A stretch of DNA of 53,028 nucleotides from Candidatus Cybelea sp. (GTDB lineage: Bacteria; Vulcanimicrobiota; Vulcanimicrobiia; Vulcanimicrobiales; Vulcanimicrobiaceae). Of this stretch, positions 22,125 to 31,097 are shown piece after piece. The notes beneath the pieces were generated by a model, which saw only the letters and a list, made by a program, of their open reading frames with translations, ran no database searches and was not told where the DNA came from. The position numbers and the translations under genes are program-made. The DNA is taken from NCBI GenBank assembly GCA_036489315.1, contig DASXFZ010000015.1, forward strand, positions 1-53,028. The letters are read 5' to 3'. How positions within the stretch are numbered: the first letter of the stretch is position 1; each line of letters begins with the position of its first letter.

Positions 22125-22742
22125 ATGAAACCCAAGACGAGATTCGTTCCGACCCAGGTTCAAGTCGGTGTGCGTGAAGAATCCAAGCGTGTGAAGCTGC
22201 AGAGGCTGCCGGCAGCGCTGGCCCTGGGCGTGCCCGCTTCCTTGATCGCCCACGGGCTGCTCTTCGGCGCCGATCATGAGTTGGGCGGCCCGTTCCACGG
22301 TGCAATCGTGTCGCTGGCGCTCGCCGTTACTTCAAGTTTCGTAGCGTTTTTCGCGGCGCTCGCATGGCGAGGCGGCCGCGCGGCTGACGGAAGCGTCCTT
22401 GCCACGCGGCTCCAGGCATGCCTTCCTGGATCTGGGACCATCTTCGTCTCGGCTGCACTCTTCTTTTCGCTCTGCGAATCGCTTGAGGCGGCTCACGCCG
22501 CCAGGGGCATCCCGGTAACGCTCGCCGTGCTGGCGCTGGCTAGCTGGGTCATCGGTAAGCTGGCGTGCGCGGTAGTGCGCGCGATCGCCGATGCAGTCAT
22601 CGCCATAGCGCAAGTTGAATCTGCCTCGCGTGCGCCCCAGTTTTGCGTACGCGACGCGCAAGAGCCGCTTCCAAGACGCACGCCGGCAACCCGTCGCCAT
22701 CTTGCACGACCTCCTCCGACGGTAGCGCTCCTGCGCGCTTAG
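22125..22742 (+). CDS. Hypothetical membrane protein
   Basis: 205 residues starting immediately after the TGA of the Popeye-like gene, suggesting coupling. Four hydrophobic segments are visible (around LALGVPASLIAHGLLFG, AIVSLALAVTSSFVAFFAAL, TIFVSAALFFSL and ALASWVIGKLACAVV), followed by an Arg/Pro-rich tail. A His and a Glu lie at the membrane surface in HGLLFGADHELGG. I do not recognise the family. It ends 50 bp before the leader ORF of the copper operon and could be part of the same transcript. Confidence 0.65.
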   Translation: MKPKTRFVPTQVQVGVREESKRVKLQRLPAALALGVPASLIAHGLLFGADHELGGPFHGAIVSLALAVTSSFVAFFAALAWRGGRAADGSVLATRLQACLPGSGTIFVSAALFFSLCESLEAAHAARGIPVTLAVLALASWVIGKLACAVVRAIADAVIAIAQVESASRAPQFCVRDAQEPLPRRTPATRRHLARPPPTVALLRA

Positions 22743-22792: not shown

Positions 22793-22846
22793 ATGTTTCG
22801 CATTTCACGGCGCACGGCGCCGTTGTTTGGGATTTCCGTTTTATGA
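22793..22846 (+). CDS. 17-residue leader ORF coupled to the thioredoxin gene
   Basis: ATG at 22793 with a perfect GGAGGAG at 22781-22787 (5-nt spacing). It encodes MFRISRRTAPLFGISVL and its TGA overlaps the ATG of the next gene (ATGA at 22843-22846). This is the strongest ribosome-binding site in the region, so it is probably a real leader peptide that delivers ribosomes to the copper operon. No regulatory codon run or Cys/His is present. Confidence 0.6.
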   Translation: MFRISRRTAPLFGISVL

Positions 22847-23478
22847 GTACCCGAGCGGAGCGCCGCCGAGTCGTTCGGCGAGCATCGCGCGAAAGCGTCA
22901 CATCGCCCAAAGTTCGCGCCGTTGCCGCCTTCGTTACAGTTGCTCTCGCGATCTGCATTGCGGCCATCACGTTCGTCGCACGCAGGAGCGTGCCGCCGAG
23001 TGCAACTGAAGCACCGGCCTACGCCTCACTAACAAAGGGCGGCGTTGCCCCGCCCTTTGCGGTCACAACGCTGACCGGATCTCACCTAGACTCAAGGCGG
23101 ATTGCCGAGCCGATCATGCTTGAGATTTTCGCCACGTGGTGCCCGCACTGTCAGCGAGAGACTCAGACCATCAGACGATTACGGCGAGCTTTCGGTGACC
23201 GTCTCTCGATCGTAGCCGTTACGGGGAGCGATATTGCCTCCGACCATCAGTCGGTCGAGACGTCCGAAGACGTTCGCCTTTTCGCACGCTATTTCGCCGT
23301 CAACTACCCAATGGCGTACGACCCCGGCCTCACCGTTGCCCAGCAATATTTGCAGGGCAGTTTCCCAACCATCGTCTTCGTCAATCGCGCAAAACGCATT
23401 TCGTCCGTTGAGATAGGGGAGATCGATCTAAAACGGCTGTCCGCCGACGCCCGGGCTGCCGGCGTAACGGGAGGATAG
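22843..23478 (+). CDS. Membrane-anchored TlpA/ResA-like thioredoxin
   Basis: 211 residues: a basic N-terminus, one membrane anchor (residues 26-46, AVAAFVTVALAICIAAITF), then an exported thioredoxin fold. The active site is ATWCPHCQRET near residue 100; the cis-Pro loop is GSFPTIVFVN. The insertion and the GDRLSIVAVTG strand are those of TlpA/ResA/DsbE-type reductants, which keep cysteines reduced during cytochrome or copper-centre assembly. As the first main gene of the copper operon it probably prepares Cu sites in the exported proteins downstream. Its ATG overlaps the stop of the 17-residue leader. Confidence 0.87.
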   Translation: MSTRAERRRVVRRASRESVTSPKVRAVAAFVTVALAICIAAITFVARRSVPPSATEAPAYASLTKGGVAPPFAVTTLTGSHLDSRRIAEPIMLEIFATWCPHCQRETQTIRRLRRAFGDRLSIVAVTGSDIASDHQSVETSEDVRLFARYFAVNYPMAYDPGLTVAQQYLQGSFPTIVFVNRAKRISSVEIGEIDLKRLSADARAAGVTGG

Positions 23479-23479
23479 C

Positions 23480-24361
23480 ATGCATTTTCGAGCGAGCGCC
23501 GCGAGAACCGTCGCGATCGGAATTACGCTTATGGCCGCCTTATTTGTTTCGACGCCCGGTTGCGTTCGTGCAGCGGAAAACATCGCCGGCAAGGACATCA
23601 TCTTCAACGGCACGGTTCCAATGAACGCCTACCTGCACGAGACTCCCGGGCCAAGTGGCACGACGCATATCGACATGTGGGAAGTCCACAACGGGCGCGT
23701 AGTCACAGCCTACGATATCGATATGACGAAGATCATGCACATGATCGTCGTCTCGGACGACCTCGTCGACTTCCGGCACGTACACCCGGTCTTGCAATCG
23801 AACGGTCACCTCGACATCGACCTCAACCTGCCCCAGAGGCAGGGCGGCTACCACATCTATATCGATGGGTTGCCGCACGGCATCGGGCGACAGGTCTTTC
23901 GTTTCGACCTTCCCTCGGGGAGCAGTGTGGCGCCGGCGCGGCACCTGCACCCGCCCGGCGGAACCGTCGTCGTCGGCCCATACACGGTAACGATCGACCC
24001 GACAGCGGTCCCGATCGGGGAGATTTCCACCGTTTCCGTACGCATCCTCAAGAACGGCCGGCCGGCGAGAGATCTTCATCCGTACCTCGGCGTGATGGCT
24101 CACGGTGTTTTTATCGGCGTCAAGGATCTCGCCTACATGCACGCCCACGGCATGAGCGAGGCCATGCTGAATTCGGCCAATTCGAACGATTGCGGCGACA
24201 GTATGATGATGGCGATGACGCCGATGCCGCCCGGCCTCAACATCGGCAACGAGTTCGAATTTCAGATTCTCGCACCGAGCGCTCAGCCTTACGATTTTTG
24301 GCTGCAGTTCGTCGGTGGAAAGACGGTCTACACGGCTCCCTTCTTGGTGACGACCATCTAA
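23480..24361 (+). CDS. Exported His/Met-rich protein, YtkA-like metal-associated domain
   Basis: 293 residues; GGGAGG lies just upstream of the ATG. Sec signal to about residue 31 (LMAALFVSTPGCVRA, AEN). Features: KIMHMIVVSDDLVDFRHVHP near residues 88-107, then LPQRQGGYHIYIDGLPHG. This is the 'DLxHxHP ... GxYxxYxD' pattern of YtkA/FixH-like domains often linked to metal efflux or copper delivery. A C-terminal stretch is rich in Met/His (AYMHAHGMSEAML, DSMMMAMTPMPP), fitting Cu(I) binding. Predicted role: periplasmic copper carrier or sensor for the operon. It ends in TAATG, overlapping the next gene by 1 bp. Confidence 0.8.
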   Translation: MHFRASAARTVAIGITLMAALFVSTPGCVRAAENIAGKDIIFNGTVPMNAYLHETPGPSGTTHIDMWEVHNGRVVTAYDIDMTKIMHMIVVSDDLVDFRHVHPVLQSNGHLDIDLNLPQRQGGYHIYIDGLPHGIGRQVFRFDLPSGSSVAPARHLHPPGGTVVVGPYTVTIDPTAVPIGEISTVSVRILKNGRPARDLHPYLGVMAHGVFIGVKDLAYMHAHGMSEAMLNSANSNDCGDSMMMAMTPMPPGLNIGNEFEFQILAPSAQPYDFWLQFVGGKTVYTAPFLVTTI

Positions 24362-24855
24362 TGCGCGCAGTTGCAACGTCAACGTGTGCTTTGCTTCTGG
24401 CGTTCGGCGCGGCTTCAATTGGCGCGATGGGACACGTGCGCGTGTTCCCTGACTCCAATAATACGCAGACGCCCGCTTGCAGCTATGCGAAGTTCGTCGT
24501 TCGCGTTCCCGTCGAGAGAAACGTGCCGACGAATCGAATCGACCTAGCGATTCCGAAGGGCGTGGTCGTCTTTGCCGTCCAACCGAAGGCCGGCTGGCAG
24601 TTCACACTCCAGAAAACGCGAGGAATTATCACCGGCATCTCTTGGAGCGGGGGGCGTCTCATGCCCGAAGAGTTCGATGAGTTTGCCTTTATCGCGGCGA
24701 CGCCGAAGACGCCTGGGCCAATCAGTTGGGACGCCAGCCAATACTATGAAAATGGCGAGATCGTTCGCTGGACCGGAGCGCCCAAGAGCGACACGCCCCA
24801 TTCCGTCACAACCGTAGTGCCCGGGAAATGCTCCACGAGAAAGAAGGTGAAATGA
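24361..24855 (+). CDS. DUF1775/YcnI-like periplasmic copper-binding protein
   Basis: 164 residues from the ATG at 24361 (TAATG overlap with the previous gene). The signal peptide MRAVATSTCALLLAFGAASI ends at AMG and would expose the mature N-terminus HVRVFPD. YcnI/CopI proteins bind Cu(II) through this N-terminal His (histidine brace). The family wording continues with YAKFVVRVPVERNVPTN, VQPKAGWQF and ISWSGGRLMPEEFDEFAF, ending with WTGAPKSDTPHSVTTVVPG. The C-terminal tail is basic and no membrane anchor follows. Role: periplasmic copper buffering or delivery. Confidence 0.88.
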   Translation: MRAVATSTCALLLAFGAASIGAMGHVRVFPDSNNTQTPACSYAKFVVRVPVERNVPTNRIDLAIPKGVVVFAVQPKAGWQFTLQKTRGIITGISWSGGRLMPEEFDEFAFIAATPKTPGPISWDASQYYENGEIVRWTGAPKSDTPHSVTTVVPGKCSTRKKVK

Positions 24856-25961
24856 AATTGGCGCATCCGGCCGCGGGAGCCGCCGCGCCTTCGCCCCCCC
24901 GCGATTTGCGCGCGCAGCGTGCCGCAGCCCCTATTCTGCTCGATTGGCTGGTGACGCTGGCAGCGGTCTGGATCATGACGGGCCTCTTCATCGATGCTCA
25001 CCAGCACCTTTTCATGGCCGTAGAGTCATTTCTCAATCCGTGGCACATGACCATGTACACGGGTGCGGTCTTTGCCGCCGCGGTGTTGGGCGTGGCAATC
25101 GCCGCCAACTATCGCCATGCCGGCTCGTTTTGGAAGGCCGTCCCCCACGGCTACGCGCAGAGCGTGGTCGGTGTCGCGGCGCTGCTCGTCGGCGGCGCGC
25201 TGGACGCCGTCTGGCACTCGATCTTCGGTTTTGAGCACCAGCTCGATCTGCTGCTCAGCCCCCCCCACCTGTTCTTGCTCACCGGCCTCTTTTTCCTGAT
25301 TACCGGCCCGGTCCGCAGTGCGCTCGCCCGTCCCGACCCATCGAATCTGCTCGAGCAACTGCCGATGCTCGTCGCGCTCGGGCTCGCCTTTGAGATCGCG
25401 CAGTTCCTGACGCAGTATGGCTTTTATCCCGAAGCCCTGATGCGTGACCACCCATTGTCGCAAACGGCCTATCACAGCGAACAGTTCATTCTATCCGTCT
25501 TCCTCTTTTACAGGCAAGCGCTGGAGATCTCAATTATAATTTGGCAGAGCGTGCTGCTTGCCGCGGCGGTCTTGTACCTATGCGTTCGCAAGCGGCTGCA
25601 CTTCGGCGCGCTCATAATACTCTGCATCGTCGAAAAGCTTTGGATCGGCGGTGAGCTTTCGAGCGATTTCAAAGAGCTTCTGCTGGTCGTGCTTGCGTCG
25701 GCTGCAGCAGGGCTCGTGGGGGACATTGTCGTGGCGAAGTTACGACCCTCGTCGGAGCGTCCTAACGCGTTCCGGCTCCTGGGATTCGTCGTGCCGTCGA
25801 CCTACTTTGCGGCGTATTTTGCCTTCGCGGTTCCCCTGTTTGGGGGAACGTGGTGGGATGCGAGCTTCGTCTTCGGGTCGATTGTCGAGGCGGGAATCGT
25901 CGGCCTCTGCGTCAGTCAGCTCATGCTCGCTGCGTCGCCAAATAACTCTGGTACCGCATGA
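24852..25961 (+). CDS. PmoC/AmoC-like multi-TM membrane protein A
   Basis: 369 residues from the ATG at 24852 (ATGA overlap with the DUF1775 gene; AAGAAGGTG upstream). About nine hydrophobic segments. The putative metal site is D48-x3-H52-x12-H65 (in FIDAHQHLF and FLNPWHMTMY), then D118-x3-H122-x5-E128 (in LDAVWHSIFGFE) and SPPH139. The spacing (+4, +13, +53, +4) matches the CuC/CuD ligands of PmoC by published residue numbers (156, 160, 173, 227, 231; +4, +13, +54, +4), with Asp for Asn227. The homology is inferred from this spacing; overall identity looks low. Its neighbours are copper proteins. It shares GFE..LLSPxHL and GPVRSxL with the paralogue at 26404. Confidence 0.68.
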   Translation: MKLAHPAAGAAAPSPPRDLRAQRAAAPILLDWLVTLAAVWIMTGLFIDAHQHLFMAVESFLNPWHMTMYTGAVFAAAVLGVAIAANYRHAGSFWKAVPHGYAQSVVGVAALLVGGALDAVWHSIFGFEHQLDLLLSPPHLFLLTGLFFLITGPVRSALARPDPSNLLEQLPMLVALGLAFEIAQFLTQYGFYPEALMRDHPLSQTAYHSEQFILSVFLFYRQALEISIIIWQSVLLAAAVLYLCVRKRLHFGALIILCIVEKLWIGGELSSDFKELLLVVLASAAAGLVGDIVVAKLRPSSERPNAFRLLGFVVPSTYFAAYFAFAVPLFGGTWWDASFVFGSIVEAGIVGLCVSQLMLAASPNNSGTA

Positions 25962-25965
25962 AGTG

Positions 25966-26409
25966 CTATCGAATGAGTATCGGCACGACGCGCTCGTCGG
26001 TATCGCCGCGCGTGTTGCGCGCGATAATGTGAAGCGTGTAGGCACGACGGTATTGCGGGATAATGTCCAGGACGTCTTGTGAGAAAACGAAGTCTCCAAA
26101 ACGGCGATGGTCGGCCGCGAAAGAGAACGACTCGGTGCGCACTTCGACACTCGCCACGTTGGTTGACGTCACGATTCGCCCCATCCATCGCCGGCCGGGT
26201 CGAATCGTCGTTTCGTTCATCCATACTGCTAGAATGTGCGGTGCCGCATCGGGTGGAAGCGCTTGCGGCGCCGGCCAGGGAGATGGCGCGTCGAGAACGC
26301 GATTTGCCGCGAGCATGCGCCCGGTGGTCTGCGAGCACGCGGGCGCAACGAGCACGGCGAGCATCGCTAGCAGGGATCGCGTGAAGTACGCGGGGTGCGT
26401 CTCATGCAT
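25966..26409 (-). CDS. Small lipoprotein on the opposite strand inside the copper operon
   Basis: 147 residues from the ATG at 26409: signal HPAYFTRSLLAMLAVLV with lipobox APAC, then a beta-rich domain (HILAVWMNETTIRPGRRW, VASVEVRTESFSFAADH, AYTLHIIARNTRGDTDE). The wording is protein-like and not a shadow: the complementary plus strand has no usable frame of this quality. It converges within 4 bp of the first PmoC-like gene, and its start codon faces the start of the second PmoC-like gene almost base to base. The domain looks like an Ig-like/bacterial surface fold; function is unknown. An antisense position inside an otherwise co-directional operon is odd. Confidence 0.68.
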   Translation of the reverse strand: MHETHPAYFTRSLLAMLAVLVAPACSQTTGRMLAANRVLDAPSPWPAPQALPPDAAPHILAVWMNETTIRPGRRWMGRIVTSTNVASVEVRTESFSFAADHRRFGDFVFSQDVLDIIPQYRRAYTLHIIARNTRGDTDERVVPILIR

Positions 26410-27465
26410 CGCGTAGTCGCTTTCGACGCGGCATCGCATCCCGCTGCAAATATCTCATACGATTGGGCAATGACCGTTGCCTCGCTATGGCTCTCCGGCG
26501 GCATCATGATCGATGCGTGGTATCATTTTCACTCGACGGTAGAAACGTTTTTCGAGCCGGCGCATGCGCTGCTCTATTCCGGTTTGCTTACCAGCTACAT
26601 CTTTACCGCCGTCGCAGTCGCCGCAGGTCGCCGGCAGGGACACCCCTGGAAGGCTGCGCTGCCGAGGGGGTACGGCATTACCGCCGCCGGCTTGATCGTA
26701 TGCCTCGCCGGCGGTTTGGCCGATATGGCCAAACACGCGCTCTGGGGATTCGAGGAAGGGTTCAACGCTCTCTTGAGCCCGACGCATCTCCTGATCGGTG
26801 TCGGGATGCTCTTGATCATCGCCGGCCCGGTGCGCTCGGTGCTCGACCGGCCGAGTCCGCCTCGAACGTTGCTTGCGCAGCTGCCGCTGGTACTTTCCGC
26901 GGCATCGATGATGGAGCTGGTACACTGGGGAACGCAATTCGTCTTTTTAAGCGAGGCCGAAAAGATGAACGCGCCGATATCCCCAGTCAGCATACCACAC
27001 GAGACCCTTACGTTGCTCACGCTGCAGTACGATAAGGAGGGAATCGGTTTGCTGGCGGTCATCGTGCAAAGCCTGCTAACCGCCGGTTTCTTTCTCTATC
27101 TTGCGCGGCGCGTGCGGCTTGCGCCGGGCGCGATGGTCGTGCTCTTCCTTGCCGGGAATGCCTTCGTCGCGGCAGCTCATTCAAATTATATCGGGCAGTT
27201 CGTCGCGGTGATCGTCGCCTCGGCGATCGCGGGGTTCGTCGCCGATGGTTTCGGATTGGATCCTGCCGATCAGCTAAGCTCCCGCTGGGCAATCGCGGCA
27301 TTTATGGTTCCAGCAGTGTACTGGGCGGTGCTGCTCGCCGTGCTCGCACTCGCGATGGGCGGAATCTGGTGGACCCCGGACGTCATCTCCGGTTCCATTC
27401 TCTTCGCCGGTCTCGTCGGGCTTTTCGTGAATGCGTTGACCGGCCCGTTCGTCGCGCACCGATGA
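26404..27465 (+). CDS. PmoC/AmoC-like multi-TM membrane protein B
   Basis: 353 residues from the ATG at 26404 (CGGGG upstream; a GTG at 26395 would add three residues). A paralogue of the protein at 24852 with the same topology. Metal-site candidates are D37-x3-H41-x12-H54 (MIDAWYHFH and FFEPAHALLY), then D107-x3-H111-x5-E117 (LADMAKHALWGFE) and SPTH128; spacing is identical to protein A (+4, +13, +53, +4). Also shared are a GG-x2-D turn before the D-x3-H, GPVRSVL, and TQ-x-x-F. It overlaps the CopC-CopD gene by ATGA. Having two copies suggests a heteromeric complex or two sites. Confidence 0.68.
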   Translation: MHRVVAFDAASHPAANISYDWAMTVASLWLSGGIMIDAWYHFHSTVETFFEPAHALLYSGLLTSYIFTAVAVAAGRRQGHPWKAALPRGYGITAAGLIVCLAGGLADMAKHALWGFEEGFNALLSPTHLLIGVGMLLIIAGPVRSVLDRPSPPRTLLAQLPLVLSAASMMELVHWGTQFVFLSEAEKMNAPISPVSIPHETLTLLTLQYDKEGIGLLAVIVQSLLTAGFFLYLARRVRLAPGAMVVLFLAGNAFVAAAHSNYIGQFVAVIVASAIAGFVADGFGLDPADQLSSRWAIAAFMVPAVYWAVLLAVLALAMGGIWWTPDVISGSILFAGLVGLFVNALTGPFVAHR

Positions 27466-29507
27466 GCGTCATGGCGCTCCGGAGGGCCTGGTCGCGCTTG
27501 TTTTTGAAAGCACTATTCGCTTTTGCGTTGCTCTGGGCATTATCGCCGAGCGCGGCCGGAGCGCACGCCTACATCGTCGGCGCGCAGCCTCCGGCAGATA
27601 GCAGCTACCAGCAGCCGGCCGGGGCGATCGCGATATCCTTTGACGAGCCGGTCGAGCTGCTCGACTCAAATGCCATGCAAGTCTTTGACGGTCACGGAAA
27701 GCGTATCGACCGCCGCGACGCAGCCGTCGACCCGCAAGACGCAACGCGGGTAATCGTAAACCTGCCCCGGCGGCTCGACTCGGGTATCTACACGGTGCGC
27801 TGGCGCGTCATTTCAGCCGATACGCACGTCGTTCACGGCATCTATCGAATCGGCGTTGGCGTACCCGTGACGCAGGGTACTGTGCTGGAAGCCGCGTCGC
27901 CATTCGACCCATCCGCCGCGCCGGCGTCGGTACTGCGGTGGTTAAGCCTGATGGGCGCGCTGCTTGCAGGCGGAGCGATTTTCTTGCGGTGGTACTTGCT
28001 GGATCGGTTGGAACTTGCCTATCCCGGAGGCATCGCCACCGCTCGGCGCGGCGCGCTCGCAGGCGCACTCGTACTCTTGGCCGTCGCCATCCCAAGCCTG
28101 ATCGTCCAGGCGTCCGCCGCCGGCGGTGCCTTTGGGCAGGATATCGGAGCGACGCTGCTGCGAACGATTTGGGGCGTCGCGTTCCTGGTCCGCCTAGTTG
28201 CCGCCGTCGTCGTGCTCTTCGTCGCACTTTTCGCCTGGAAGCCGCTCAGCCGGATTGCGATCGTTTCGATCGTTATCTTGCTGGCCACCTTCAGCGCATC
28301 GGGTCATGCATTAGCTCAATCGAGCCTTAGCGCTCGCGCAATCGCCATGCTGGTAGACTTTGCGCATCTTGCCGCCGCCGCGGCGTGGATTGGCGGCCTC
28401 TTTATAATTGCTGCGATATTGTTGCCCCTTTGGCGGGCCCGCGACGTCAGAACGACGGAACGGACCCAAGCCCTTTTTGTGGCTTTTACTCCACTCGCAA
28501 TGGCGTGCGTCGCCATTATCGTCGTCAGCGGAGCGTATGCGTCGGTTATTCACCTTGGGCATATCGGCGATCTTGTAGGGTCCACCTACGGGCGCGTGCT
28601 TCTCATTAAAATTATCGTTGTGGCAGTTCTGTTGCTGCTAGGTTGGCGGCACTTTCGCATCGGGGCTGGAAGGAGCGCCGCGCCGGGTATCGCCACGCTG
28701 GGATACGAAACGCTCGCCGGCATCGTCGTTGCGCTGCTCACGGCGATCTTGGTCGGACAAATGCCGCCCGCGCACCTACCCGCATCGACCTCGTCGACCC
28801 CTTTGGAACTCGCCGGGGTTCTCTGCATCTTGGCGATCGTACGCTTCGCGTCGGCGAAAAAGGGCCGTACAATTGGGCCTTCAACCACGCCGGCAACTAG
28901 GTCTCTAGACCTCGCAATCATCGCGGGATCGGCCGCGCTTTTCTTAATCACGGTCGTGGTCGGTGGATACTCAGTAGAGTCGGCCTCGATGTGGCCGACG
29001 CTGCAGCTTAACGACATCGTGCTAGTCGACCGGCTAACCTATCGGCTGCGCTCCCCCCGGCACGACGACCTCGCGGTCTTCGTGCCGCCCGTGGAATCCG
29101 GCGGCAAGGACTTCGTAGAGCGTGTGGTCGGCGTTCCGGGCGACGAGATCGCAATCCGCGACGGGATCCTCTATCGAAACGGCAAGGCGCTTGACGAAGT
29201 GCCCGAGCAACAACCGGGTGCCTACGATTTAGCGATTCGGGACTACGAAATCTACATCGACGGTGACCCGCTCGACCCCCGCACGGCGGACGTACCGCCG
29301 AGGGCGCTCTGGCAGGCTCCGGACCGTATTCCAATGGGCTTCTATCTTTTGCTTGGGGACAACCGAAACTACTCGTACGACTCGCACATTTGGGGCTTCG
29401 CTCAGAGCGGCGGAGTGTTCGTGGCCGGACCACTGGCGACGCGAAACGTGCGCGCCGGCTTTGTGGGCATCTCTCGCGGCGTCATTTGGCCGCTGGGCAG
29501 ACTGTAA
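27462..29507 (+). CDS. CopC-CopD-signal peptidase I fusion protein
   Basis: 681 residues from the ATG at 27462 (ATGA overlap with the previous stop). Domain order: signal peptide to A34; CopC domain 35-140 with mature N-terminal His35 (HAYIVGAQPP) and the second ligand region DTHVVHGIYRIG (His122, His125); CopD eight-TM region about 150-470; then a type I signal peptidase domain from about 490 with its own TM. The peptidase has ESASMWPTL (Ser509), FVERVVGVPGDE and LLGDNRNYSYDSHIWG boxes. The general-base Lys that should precede RVVGVPGD is Glu553. CopC/CopD import or bind copper; the fused peptidase is unusual. The reading frame is continuous through both junctions. Confidence 0.85.
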   Translation: MSVMALRRAWSRLFLKALFAFALLWALSPSAAGAHAYIVGAQPPADSSYQQPAGAIAISFDEPVELLDSNAMQVFDGHGKRIDRRDAAVDPQDATRVIVNLPRRLDSGIYTVRWRVISADTHVVHGIYRIGVGVPVTQGTVLEAASPFDPSAAPASVLRWLSLMGALLAGGAIFLRWYLLDRLELAYPGGIATARRGALAGALVLLAVAIPSLIVQASAAGGAFGQDIGATLLRTIWGVAFLVRLVAAVVVLFVALFAWKPLSRIAIVSIVILLATFSASGHALAQSSLSARAIAMLVDFAHLAAAAAWIGGLFIIAAILLPLWRARDVRTTERTQALFVAFTPLAMACVAIIVVSGAYASVIHLGHIGDLVGSTYGRVLLIKIIVVAVLLLLGWRHFRIGAGRSAAPGIATLGYETLAGIVVALLTAILVGQMPPAHLPASTSSTPLELAGVLCILAIVRFASAKKGRTIGPSTTPATRSLDLAIIAGSAALFLITVVVGGYSVESASMWPTLQLNDIVLVDRLTYRLRSPRHDDLAVFVPPVESGGKDFVERVVGVPGDEIAIRDGILYRNGKALDEVPEQQPGAYDLAIRDYEIYIDGDPLDPRTADVPPRALWQAPDRIPMGFYLLLGDNRNYSYDSHIWGFAQSGGVFVAGPLATRNVRAGFVGISRGVIWPLGRL

Positions 29508-29557
29508 TTATGTTCCCGACGCGCACTTCTTTGAAGAAAAGGTGACCGGCGAAAGCG

Positions 29558-30997
29558 ATGATACGAAAGGCATTCTTGAAAAGCGGGATGAGTGCGATGG
29601 CGGCGGCCGCGATCCTTCCAAGGACGCACCAGGCGCTCGCAAGCGAGGTAATTAGTTACACGCTGACGTCGGCGCCCTTGAAATTCTCGCCGTCGCCCGG
29701 ACTTGCATTCGCCGGCTTGGCTTACAACGGGTCGATCCCCGGACCGGTATTACGAGCCGCCTACGGGCAGCGCGTGCGCATTCGCTACGTCAGTCGAGTC
29801 GCTATACCGACGAGCGTGCATTGGCACGGTATGATTCTTCCAAACGCCATGGACGGCGTTGCCTCAGTGACGCAGCCGCCAGTCCTCGAAAATGGCGAAT
29901 TCCTGTACGAGTTTACCGCAGGTCCCCCCGGAACGCGCTGGTATCACGATCACGCCTTTCACATGGGGCTTTCACGCGGGCTTTTCGGTATGTTCGTCGT
30001 CGACGATCCCAGCGATGAGCCGGCTGACAGGGAGTTCGCGCTTGTTTTTCACGACGTTCCGCAGTGGAGCACGGTCGACGCCGCCGAGCGTGGTATCAGC
30101 GGCGTTCCAATGACGATGCTGCCGGGTTCACCGGAGGCGCTAGCAATGACGGCGATGCGTTCCTCTCATAAGATGGGAGATGAGGTGGCGTACGCGGCAC
30201 ACTGTATCGACGGCGCCACGTATCCGCGAACGCGCAGACTCGCCGTCAGGCTCGGCGACCGCGTTCGGCTGCGCATCCTCAATGCGAGTCCGACCGAGAC
30301 ACGCTACGTTAGCCTCGCCGGGCATCGCTTCACGGTTACCCACAGCGACGGGAATCGCCTTGAGTCACCGATTGCGGTCGACGCCCTGCGAATCGGCGTC
30401 GGCGAACGCTACGACGCCTACTTCGAAGTGAGAAAGCCCGGTGCGTTCTTGCTTCAGGGCCTCACGGGGGGGCCGGCCCCGCACCAACAGGCGGCACTCT
30501 TTTACACCGAAGGGATGGAAAACGCACAGCCGGCGGAGAGTCCGCAGACGCTAGTCGGCGTCGATTATTTCACCTACGAAAAGGCGGCGGGCGGGGCGGC
30601 CGCCCCGTCGGCCGAAACGCTTGGATCGTTGCGATACGAGTTCACGCTTGGGGGCGGCGCGTGGGGCAGCAATCGCTGGACGATCAACGGGGCGACATGG
30701 CCCGATACGCCAAAAATTCTCGTACGACGCGGCGACCGCGTCTCGGTGCACTTCAAAAATACCACCGATATGGAGCATCCGATGCACCTGCACGGCCATG
30801 CGTTCGAGCTCGTCGAGGTAGGTGGAACGTGGCTTGCACGGCCGCTTTCGAAAGATGTCTCCATCGTACCGGCTAATGGGGGGACGACGACGTGGCGATT
30901 CACCGCAAACTCGCTGTCCGGACGCTGGCTGCTGCACTGCCATAACGAGATACATGCGATGGACGGGATGATGACCGAGGTGAGATATGAATCCTGA
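29558..30997 (+). CDS. Multicopper oxidase (laccase/CopA-like)
   Basis: 479 residues with a signal peptide (GMSAMAAAAILPRTHQALA) and three cupredoxin domains. All four copper motifs are present: HWHG at 88-91, WYHDH at 128-132, HPMHLHGH beginning near 407, and HCHNEIHAMDGM at 460-471. The Cys461 / His-x3-His / Met471 arrangement is that of a type 1 site with an axial Met. It should oxidise a periplasmic substrate (Cu(I), phenolics or an electron donor) with O2. It lies 50 bp downstream of the CopC-CopD fusion gene and its end overlaps the 36-residue TM gene, so it belongs to the same transcript. Confidence 0.92.
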   Translation: MIRKAFLKSGMSAMAAAAILPRTHQALASEVISYTLTSAPLKFSPSPGLAFAGLAYNGSIPGPVLRAAYGQRVRIRYVSRVAIPTSVHWHGMILPNAMDGVASVTQPPVLENGEFLYEFTAGPPGTRWYHDHAFHMGLSRGLFGMFVVDDPSDEPADREFALVFHDVPQWSTVDAAERGISGVPMTMLPGSPEALAMTAMRSSHKMGDEVAYAAHCIDGATYPRTRRLAVRLGDRVRLRILNASPTETRYVSLAGHRFTVTHSDGNRLESPIAVDALRIGVGERYDAYFEVRKPGAFLLQGLTGGPAPHQQAALFYTEGMENAQPAESPQTLVGVDYFTYEKAAGGAAAPSAETLGSLRYEFTLGGGAWGSNRWTINGATWPDTPKILVRRGDRVSVHFKNTTDMEHPMHLHGHAFELVEVGGTWLARPLSKDVSIVPANGGTTTWRFTANSLSGRWLLHCHNEIHAMDGMMTEVRYES

Positions 30998-31097
30998 GCG
31001 GCCTGCCGGTTATCGCCGCCTCCTCATCGGCGCTATCGTCTTGGGAGCTCTGATCCTTATCGCATTCGTCTTTTATATCTCGATCGGCTCGGACTAA
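30987..31097 (+). CDS. 36-residue single-TM protein
   Basis: ATG at 30987 inside the last codons of the multicopper oxidase gene (11-bp overlap), with GAGGTGAGAT upstream. It encodes a basic N-terminus (MNPERPAGYRRL) followed by one strong hydrophobic helix (GAIVLGALILIAFVFYISI) and a short GSD tail. Its length, positive-inside N-terminus and overlap with the preceding gene suggest a real small membrane protein that ends the copper operon. It could be an assembly or stabilising subunit. Confidence 0.65.
   Translation: MNPERPAGYRRLLIGAIVLGALILIAFVFYISIGSD

Follow-up and report, generated by a model that had tools for sequence, protein, structure and literature searches.

Introduction

Two kinds of described system lie closest to the locus studied here, the copper-handling operons of the YcnIJ type and the operons of the PmoC-containing monooxygenases. 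The locus is a cluster of genes for copper proteins and for two PmoC-like membrane proteins, PC1 and PC2, in a 53,028-nucleotide stretch of DNA (the window; contig DASXFZ010000015.1) from Candidatus Cybelea sp., a soil bacterium of the Eremiobacterota (draft genome G000, 3.09 Mb in 64 contigs). One study describes DUF1775 proteins as binding Cu(II) through an N-terminal histidine, often with CopCD as a neighbour (PMC8424229). Another reports that the CopC and CopD residues of YcnJ are needed under copper limitation and links YcnJ with Sco (PMC13344008). For PmoC, published work gives Asp156, His160, and His173 as the CuC ligands (PMC12576850, PMC7584546) and Asn227, His231, and His245 as the CuD ligands (PMC12576850). 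The genes copC, copD, and pCuAC are placed in extended pmo/amo operons and lone pmoC genes are mentioned (PMC6189053), and a singleton xmoC is described as occurring in addition to the operon copies (PMC6215863).

An earlier note, made from the letters of the window alone, had read the cluster as one co-directional operon for a copper-fed membrane oxidase. What appears valuable in it is the family rather than the operon: PC1 and PC2 belong to an unnamed membrane family, spread over several phyla, with two conserved PmoC-like putative metal sites. A literature search, with coverage that lacked bioRxiv and most subscription journals, found no description of this family.

Results

A membrane family with two PmoC-like sites

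PC1 and PC2 (Table 1) had no Pfam or NCBIfam family above cut-off and no PDB sequence match; direct PDB sequence searches returned nothing for PC1 and one chance match for PC2. All family members that were aligned share two patterns, D-x3-H...P-x-H (site 1) and D-x3-H-x5-E...SP-x-H (site 2). Among seventy distinct PC sequences from Eremiobacterota and Chloroflexota, the D, H, E, S, P, and H of site 2 were kept in 70/70, and the D, H, and H of site 1 in every row scored (68, 68, and 69 of the 70, respectively). An alignment of thirty-two rows from five phyla, a selection that omits the Chlorohelix kinase fusion, members with a propeller insertion, and numerous near-identical copies, has D40, H44, H57, P90, Y93, D110, H114, G118, E120, S128, P129, and H131 invariant, together with three more columns (PC2 numbering, counted from the GTG at 26395).

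The PmoC/AmoC sequences in the PDB read D-x3-H-x12-H, then N-x3-H-x5-E...P-x-H. The CuC ligand pattern is thus present in PC, where its Asp and both His are invariant. Of the CuD pattern both His are invariant, the Asn is replaced by an invariant Asp, and the loop is about three residues longer. Spacings could be counted in 68 of 72 rows, the other four lacking two recognised copies of the motif: the two histidines of site 1 are 13 apart in 56/68 (13 in PmoC), and the two aspartates are 70 apart in 52/68 (71 in PmoC). When a PC profile was run against 4,249 open reading frames (ORFs) of at least 120 amino acids plus sixty-one PmoC sequences, the top six matches were all PmoC (best E 0.0012, from Mycolicibacterium). 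In the reverse search with a PmoC profile, the top six were all PC proteins (best E 0.0034), and the profile alignments held the ligands in register. Aligned with hhalign, PC and PmoC gave P 0.0098, better than nine controls (the next being PmoA, 0.038); a first comparison using viral PmoC only had given P 0.017 and a probability of 2.7%. The earlier note's naming of two PmoC-like proteins thus stands, on ligand order, spacing, and reciprocal best profile matches, and it is quite probable that PC and PmoC share ancestry. The motif occurs twice in each of them, so a duplication within an ancient common precursor is possible; in one alignment (PC_L198), site 1 of PC was matched with the second site of PmoC.

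We searched sixty genomes of the phylum (G000 and fifty-nine relatives). None passed the curated cut-off of AmoC (PF04896). Eight sub-threshold matches to this model included two in PC genes, both PC paralogues (E 0.013 and 0.029). In whole-library scans AmoC models came up for single PC members at E 0.085–0.5, amid other chance-level families; one of thirty-two PC members matched AmoC, with E 0.51 for the Pfam model and 0.085 for the NCBIfam one. PmoA (AMO, PF02461) and PmoB (Monooxygenase_B, PF04744) were each above cut-off in 0/60 genomes, and neither was found in draft G000 at E 0.1, so the absence that the earlier note remarked on for the cluster extends to the whole genome, within the limits of the draft.

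An AlphaFold2 model of PC1, built from 18 sequences (pLDDT 78.3), contains ten long transmembrane (TM) helices; in this prediction the two sites are located where helices 1/2 and 3/4 end. The mean number of Lys plus Arg is 0.19 in each site loop versus 1.4–2.1 in the three surrounding loops. As expected from this alternation of charge, the N-terminus is predicted to lie inside and the site-bearing loops outside.

PC homologues turned up in 43/60 genomes in a six-frame protein search, the window's own included; G000 has four copies, two of them inside the cluster. Exact PC1 peptides occur at fifteen loci among 84,980 species genomes (eleven Eremiobacterota and four Chloroflexota). PC2 matched 9 of 72,556 plasmid records, namely two from Rhodococcus, three from Deinococcus, and one each from Nonomuraea, Paenibacillus, Arthrobacter, and Candidatus Chlorohelix. 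In a tree of seventy-one PC rows, the PC1 and PC2 proteins of three copper clusters (described below) form two separate clades within wider groups, and therefore two different PC types were brought into one cluster. The presence of PC in 43/60 genomes, together with the locus survey that follows, rules out a family specific to copper clusters. Because the family is wider than the cluster of the window, the function underlying it could be a more general one.

Two kinds of fusion were also seen. The PC proteins of five loci (L091, L107, L108, L109, and L112) are 616–647 amino acids long and carry a beta-propeller between the site-bearing and C-terminal halves; in L108, the one scanned, it is PD40. 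On the Candidatus Chlorohelix plasmid (L203:7941-12062), a degenerate PC domain and a propeller are fused to a histidine kinase in a protein of 1373 amino acids, and most metal ligands are lost.

The lipoprotein partner

The constant partner of PC genes in Eremiobacterota is M157, a lipoprotein gene that the earlier note overlooked, not a copper gene. We surveyed sixty-one Eremiobacterota PC loci (the window and L055–L114), some of them truncated at contig ends. M157 is present in forty-eight, and in 47/48 it adjoins and diverges from a PC gene with at most 191 bp between the matched domains; in the exception, L068, it lies 6.8 kb from PC. It was not found in the five loci with propeller insertions. 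In many genomes the M157 homologue beside PC has a lipobox-like cysteine (46 of 49 distinct rows by a loose pattern, and the other three have a cysteine at the same place). An eleven-row alignment showed no invariant His, Met, or Cys besides this lipid-anchor Cys. The M157 model (pLDDT 78.5) is an Ig/PKD-like sandwich with ten PDB matches at E ≤0.001 (best 2.3e-4).

M157 is fused to an SCO1/SenC domain in two loci, with SCO first in L068:1847-2902 and last in L101:7882-9165 (SCO Pfam E 2e-14 and 4e-12). The usual spacing of the SCO cysteines is C-x3-C; in these two fusions it is C-x5-C.

Neighbourhoods of PC genes

Copper genes were sought with profiles built from the window's own proteins, together with Pfam CopC, DUF1775, and Cu-oxidase_3 across the genomes. 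SCO domains were spotted by eye and then confirmed by scan, so that counts of SCO neighbours are lower bounds. A copper gene was found near PC in 10/61 loci: three CopCD/DUF1775 clusters (one with a multicopper oxidase, MCO), six further loci with MCO, and one SCO fusion (L101). The earlier note had named a consistent lack of copper genes beside PC homologues as what would count against its oxidase reading, and for most loci this is what we found, a result that goes for the most part against an obligate copper operon. Of the neighbours whose recurrence it had asked about, DUF1775 and CopCD are present in three loci and MCO in seven, where it is within 4 kb of PC (the window, L061, L072, L079, L082, L098, and L114). 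Genome-wide, MCO domains occur in at least 54/60 genomes and CopC in 26/60; G040 also has a long CopC-bearing frame, separate from its PC gene and located on a small contig.

In eighteen loci PC adjoins an aromatic-CoA pathway (benzoate-CoA ligase type, acyl-CoA dehydrogenase, enoyl-CoA hydratase, salicylyl-CoA 5-hydroxylase). M157 overlaps the enoyl-CoA hydratase gene in several of these loci, and in L074, the only one scanned, the NCBIfam salicylyl-CoA 5-hydroxylase/oxidoreductase was above cut-off. Loci with PC and M157 beside this set include L056, L058, L065, L069, L074, and L088.

Outside the phylum, 4/9 plasmid records have copper genes near PC. Both Rhodococcus plasmids carry PC near MCO and a two-component system. 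The Arthrobacter neighbours are DUF305-BNR-DsbD-MCO-LGT-DUF3105-CtaG, and those in Deinococcus aetherius are a metal P-type ATPase, an HMA protein, and a metal-sensitive regulator. No copper genes stood beside PC in the stretches listed for D. taeanensis, D. deserti, and Chlorohelix; the Nonomuraea and Paenibacillus records are unannotated. Because plasmids are enriched in metal resistance, we take these plasmid neighbours as suggestive only.

The copper cluster of the window

Translation and Pfam/NCBIfam scans bore out the gene identities proposed for the cluster, from the thioredoxin (TRX) and the His/Met-rich HM293 through DUF1775, CopC-CopD, and MCO to the ORF of thirty-six residues, and with CopC-CopD and DUF1775 its copper character (Table 1). 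UP205 is probably a further member, because its homologues accompany the other two copper clusters.

Table 1. Genes and putative metal sites of the cluster, in window coordinates
Feature	Position	Strand	Evidence and remarks
UP205, membrane protein of unknown function	22125..22742	+	No Pfam match; homologues upstream of CopCD in G007 and G008 copper clusters
TRX, TlpA/ResA-like membrane-anchored thioredoxin, CPHC motif	22843..23478	+	Pfam AhpC-TSA 7e-10
HM293, exported His/Met-rich protein, unnamed family	23480..24361	+	No family above cut-off
DUF1775 (YcnI-type) protein	24361..24855	+	Pfam PF07987, E 5e-18
PC1, PmoC-like membrane protein	24828..25961, alternative start 24852	+	No curated family
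PC1 putative site 1 (CuC-like): D56, H60, P71, H73	24993..25046	+	Alignment
PC1 putative site 2 (CuD-like, Asp for Asn): D126, H130, E136, SP-x-H147	25203..25268	+	Alignment
M157, lipoprotein with Ig/PKD-like beta sandwich	25966..26409	-	Divergent from PC2, convergent with PC1
PC2, PmoC-like membrane protein	26395 (GTG) or 26404 (ATG)..27465	+	No curated family
PC2 putative site 1: D40, H44, H57	26512..26565	+	Alignment
PC2 putative site 2: D110, H114, E120, SP-x-H131	26722..26787	+	Alignment
CopC-CopD-Peptidase_S26 fusion	ATG 27453..29507	+	CopC 6e-17, CopD 3e-11, Peptidase_S26 1e-30
MCO, CopA/laccase type	29558..30997	+	Pfam/NCBIfam; no counterpart in G007/G008 clusters
ORF of 36 residues, single TM	30987..31097	+	No homologue in loci examined

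The tight packing described earlier is real in part. From TRX to the 36-residue ORF there are eight plus-strand genes, and at 5/7 of their junctions the neighbours overlap or have 1 bp between them; the wider gaps measure 50 bp (CopCD/MCO) and 433–442 bp (PC1/PC2). The PC1/PC2 gap is occupied by M157 in antisense, so the co-directional set is interrupted and a single co-directional operon is ruled out. At 26404-26409 (ATGCAT) the ATG of PC2 on the plus strand abuts that of M157 at 26409 on the minus strand, if these starts are right; with starts back to back, the promoter of either gene would fall inside the other. Promoter and terminator scans of the window did no better than on shuffled sequence, and Rfam gave zero matches within it.

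Three loci, in three genomes of one genus, hold CopC-CopD, DUF1775, and HM293 homologues together: that of the window, L068 in G007, and L070 in G008 (the same place as L037). DUF1775 was found in 3/60 genomes, always in this cluster, and its His after the signal peptide is kept in all three homologues; among the loci examined, HM293 has homologues in the G007 and G008 clusters only. DUF1775 and CopCD are directly adjacent in G007 and G008 and separated by PC1 and PC2 in the window. A TRX homologue is present in the G008 cluster; TRX also matched the NCBIfam ResA-like model, under cut-off (2e-12). The sister clusters add SCO1, beside TRX in L070 (scanned) and in L068 (by eye), and L068 adds an NRAMP-like transporter. 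Neither sister cluster has a counterpart of MCO or the 36-residue ORF, which rules out MCO as a core partner.

The S26 domains of the three CopCD fusions keep the Ser and have E, Q, and Q (window, L068, and L070) at what we take to be the position of the catalytic Lys. The Ser-Lys catalytic pair of signal peptidase I is therefore absent from all three, which makes peptidase activity doubtful, and the domain is possibly a repurposed signal peptidase.

Discussion

On the strength of the literature cited above, the cluster is best read as a YcnIJ-like locus for copper acquisition and trafficking, into which PC1 and PC2 would have been recruited as PmoC-related, probably copper-binding membrane proteins; we consider the case for this evenly balanced. 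DUF1775 and CopC would take up Cu(II) outside the cell, and CopD would move the metal into the membrane or through it. The thioredoxin, with SCO proteins in the sister clusters, could serve thiol redox or delivery. PC1 and PC2 would hold copper at two periplasmic-side membrane sites, as a relay or store for membrane or periplasmic cuproenzymes, with M157 docked outside. The SCO-M157 fusions in two loci and the SCO1 gene beside TRX in G008 are consistent with such a role. Also in its favour are the conserved sites with their PmoC-like spacing, the reciprocal profile matches, the joint presence of CopC-CopD and DUF1775 in three genomes, MCO near PC in 7/61 loci, and the plasmid neighbours in Rhodococcus, Arthrobacter, and D. 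aetherius.

Several results weigh against this interpretation. The kinship with PmoC on which it draws is distant: the six best PmoC matches reach only E 0.001–0.09 and hhalign P 0.01–0.03, and the hhalign score of 23.0, obtained with the template columns rewritten, was reached by 4/400 shuffled profiles. Foldseek gave no significant match (for PC1, best E 0.55 in the PDB and 0.25 in BFVD), and PmoC was not among the structure matches listed. With the PC1 model (pLDDT 78), the best VIA-align row was an ECF S-component (Z 11.2). The chains we infer to be of AmoA type scored Z 8.6 and 7.9, the former for 9cl6_B (root-mean-square deviation 5.4, 178 aligned), under the level trusted for helical bundles. 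Sites of the D/H/H kind would fit Zn or Fe as well. The neighbourhoods are a further difficulty, as our queries found no copper gene in 51/61 Eremiobacterota PC loci, a GT39-like glycosyltransferase gene (a family name given by eye) lies downstream of PC on the same strand in 18/61, and the aromatic-CoA pathway adjoins PC in the eighteen loci noted above, confined to one clade of the tree.

In the main sober alternative, PC is a membrane protein of the envelope, either an enzyme or a transporter, that depends on a metal without being linked to copper in particular, and the copper cluster is a local rearrangement. The near-constant pairing with M157, the GT39-like gene, the low share of loci with copper genes, and the propeller insertions in five loci all suit an envelope role, which we nonetheless hold unlikely in view of the SCO-M157 fusions, the recurrences of MCO and CopCD, and the PmoC-like geometry of the sites. 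That geometry, with CuC- and CuD-like residues both invariant, is also what invites a new copper membrane oxidase or oxygenase. PC1 and PC2 would then be catalytic, with M157 replacing PmoB, a CuD-like site activating O2, and the copper genes serving only to load it. The MCO and CopCD neighbours would suit it, as would the eighteen loci in which PC and M157 stand beside acyl-CoA, benzoate-CoA-ligase-type, and salicylyl-CoA 5-hydroxylase-type genes. The sixty genomes yielded no PmoA or PmoB, however, M157 lacks a conserved metal ligand, the aromatic neighbourhood is limited to one clade, and the CuD Asn is replaced by Asp. We regard such an enzyme as distinctly unlikely, and the membrane oxidase complex that the earlier note drew from these genes is not supported. 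A stricter version we judge very unlikely: PC and M157 would together make up a copper membrane oxidase or oxygenase of two components, widespread and related to the copper membrane monooxygenases through an early branch, that works without PmoA or PmoB; if true, the subunit with CuC and CuD would be the older catalytic core.

The Chlorohelix fusion of a PC domain and propeller to a histidine kinase, and the two-component pair near PC in both Rhodococcus plasmids, raise the idea of a membrane sensor domain for metal or redox state. The ligands are largely lost in that fusion, though, and the window cluster has no conspicuous signalling gene next to PC. We regard this idea as highly improbable. 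PC as mainly a kinase sensor domain was set aside, the fusion being single and its ligands degraded.

Should the copper acquisition and trafficking reading be right, an uncatalogued membrane part and its lipoprotein partner would be added to bacterial copper handling. It would also be a first functional lead for proteins unnamed in Pfam and NCBIfam and found in at least five phyla, a family that in Eremiobacterota has a dedicated partner in M157. It has long been disputed which of the PmoC sites performs the chemistry when methane and ammonia are oxidised. As the geometry of both sites is preserved in PC while PmoA and PmoB are missing, the family could offer a natural reduced system for studying what each site binds and does.

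Comparison with known systems

Like the lone pmoC and amoC genes of methanotrophs and nitrifiers, PC is a PmoC-type gene without adjoining pmoAB. Those genes are extra copies beside operon ones, whereas PC is far more distant and its hosts lack pmoCAB. We also noted, on plasmids of Methylocystis iwaonis (L204) and Nitrosomonas sp. sh817 (L205), amoC/pmoC genes for which the gene table, itself incomplete, gives neither amoA nor amoB in the surrounding 3 kb. The extended pmo/amo operons (copC, copD, pmoD, pCuAC) resemble the window in having CopC/CopD beside a PmoC-type gene; unlike them, the window is without pmoA or pmoB, and no pmoD or pCuAC was recognised in it.

Compared with PmoC/AmoC (PF04896) itself, PC has the same ligand order at about equal distances and likewise carries an acidic residue at +10 and the P-x-H. 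It differs in length (about 360 amino acids with ten predicted TM helices, versus about 250), in the Asp for Asn of site 2 and the second loop longer by about three residues, in its position under the AmoC cut-off, and in having M157 as its partner and no PmoA or PmoB.

The Bacillus subtilis ycnKJI operon shares with the window cluster a DUF1775 protein and a CopC-CopD fusion. No YcnK-type regulator or YtkA domain had a Pfam match in the nine window proteins scanned; the window CopCD carries Peptidase_S26 in place of YtkA, and the cluster adds two PC proteins, TRX, HM293, and MCO.

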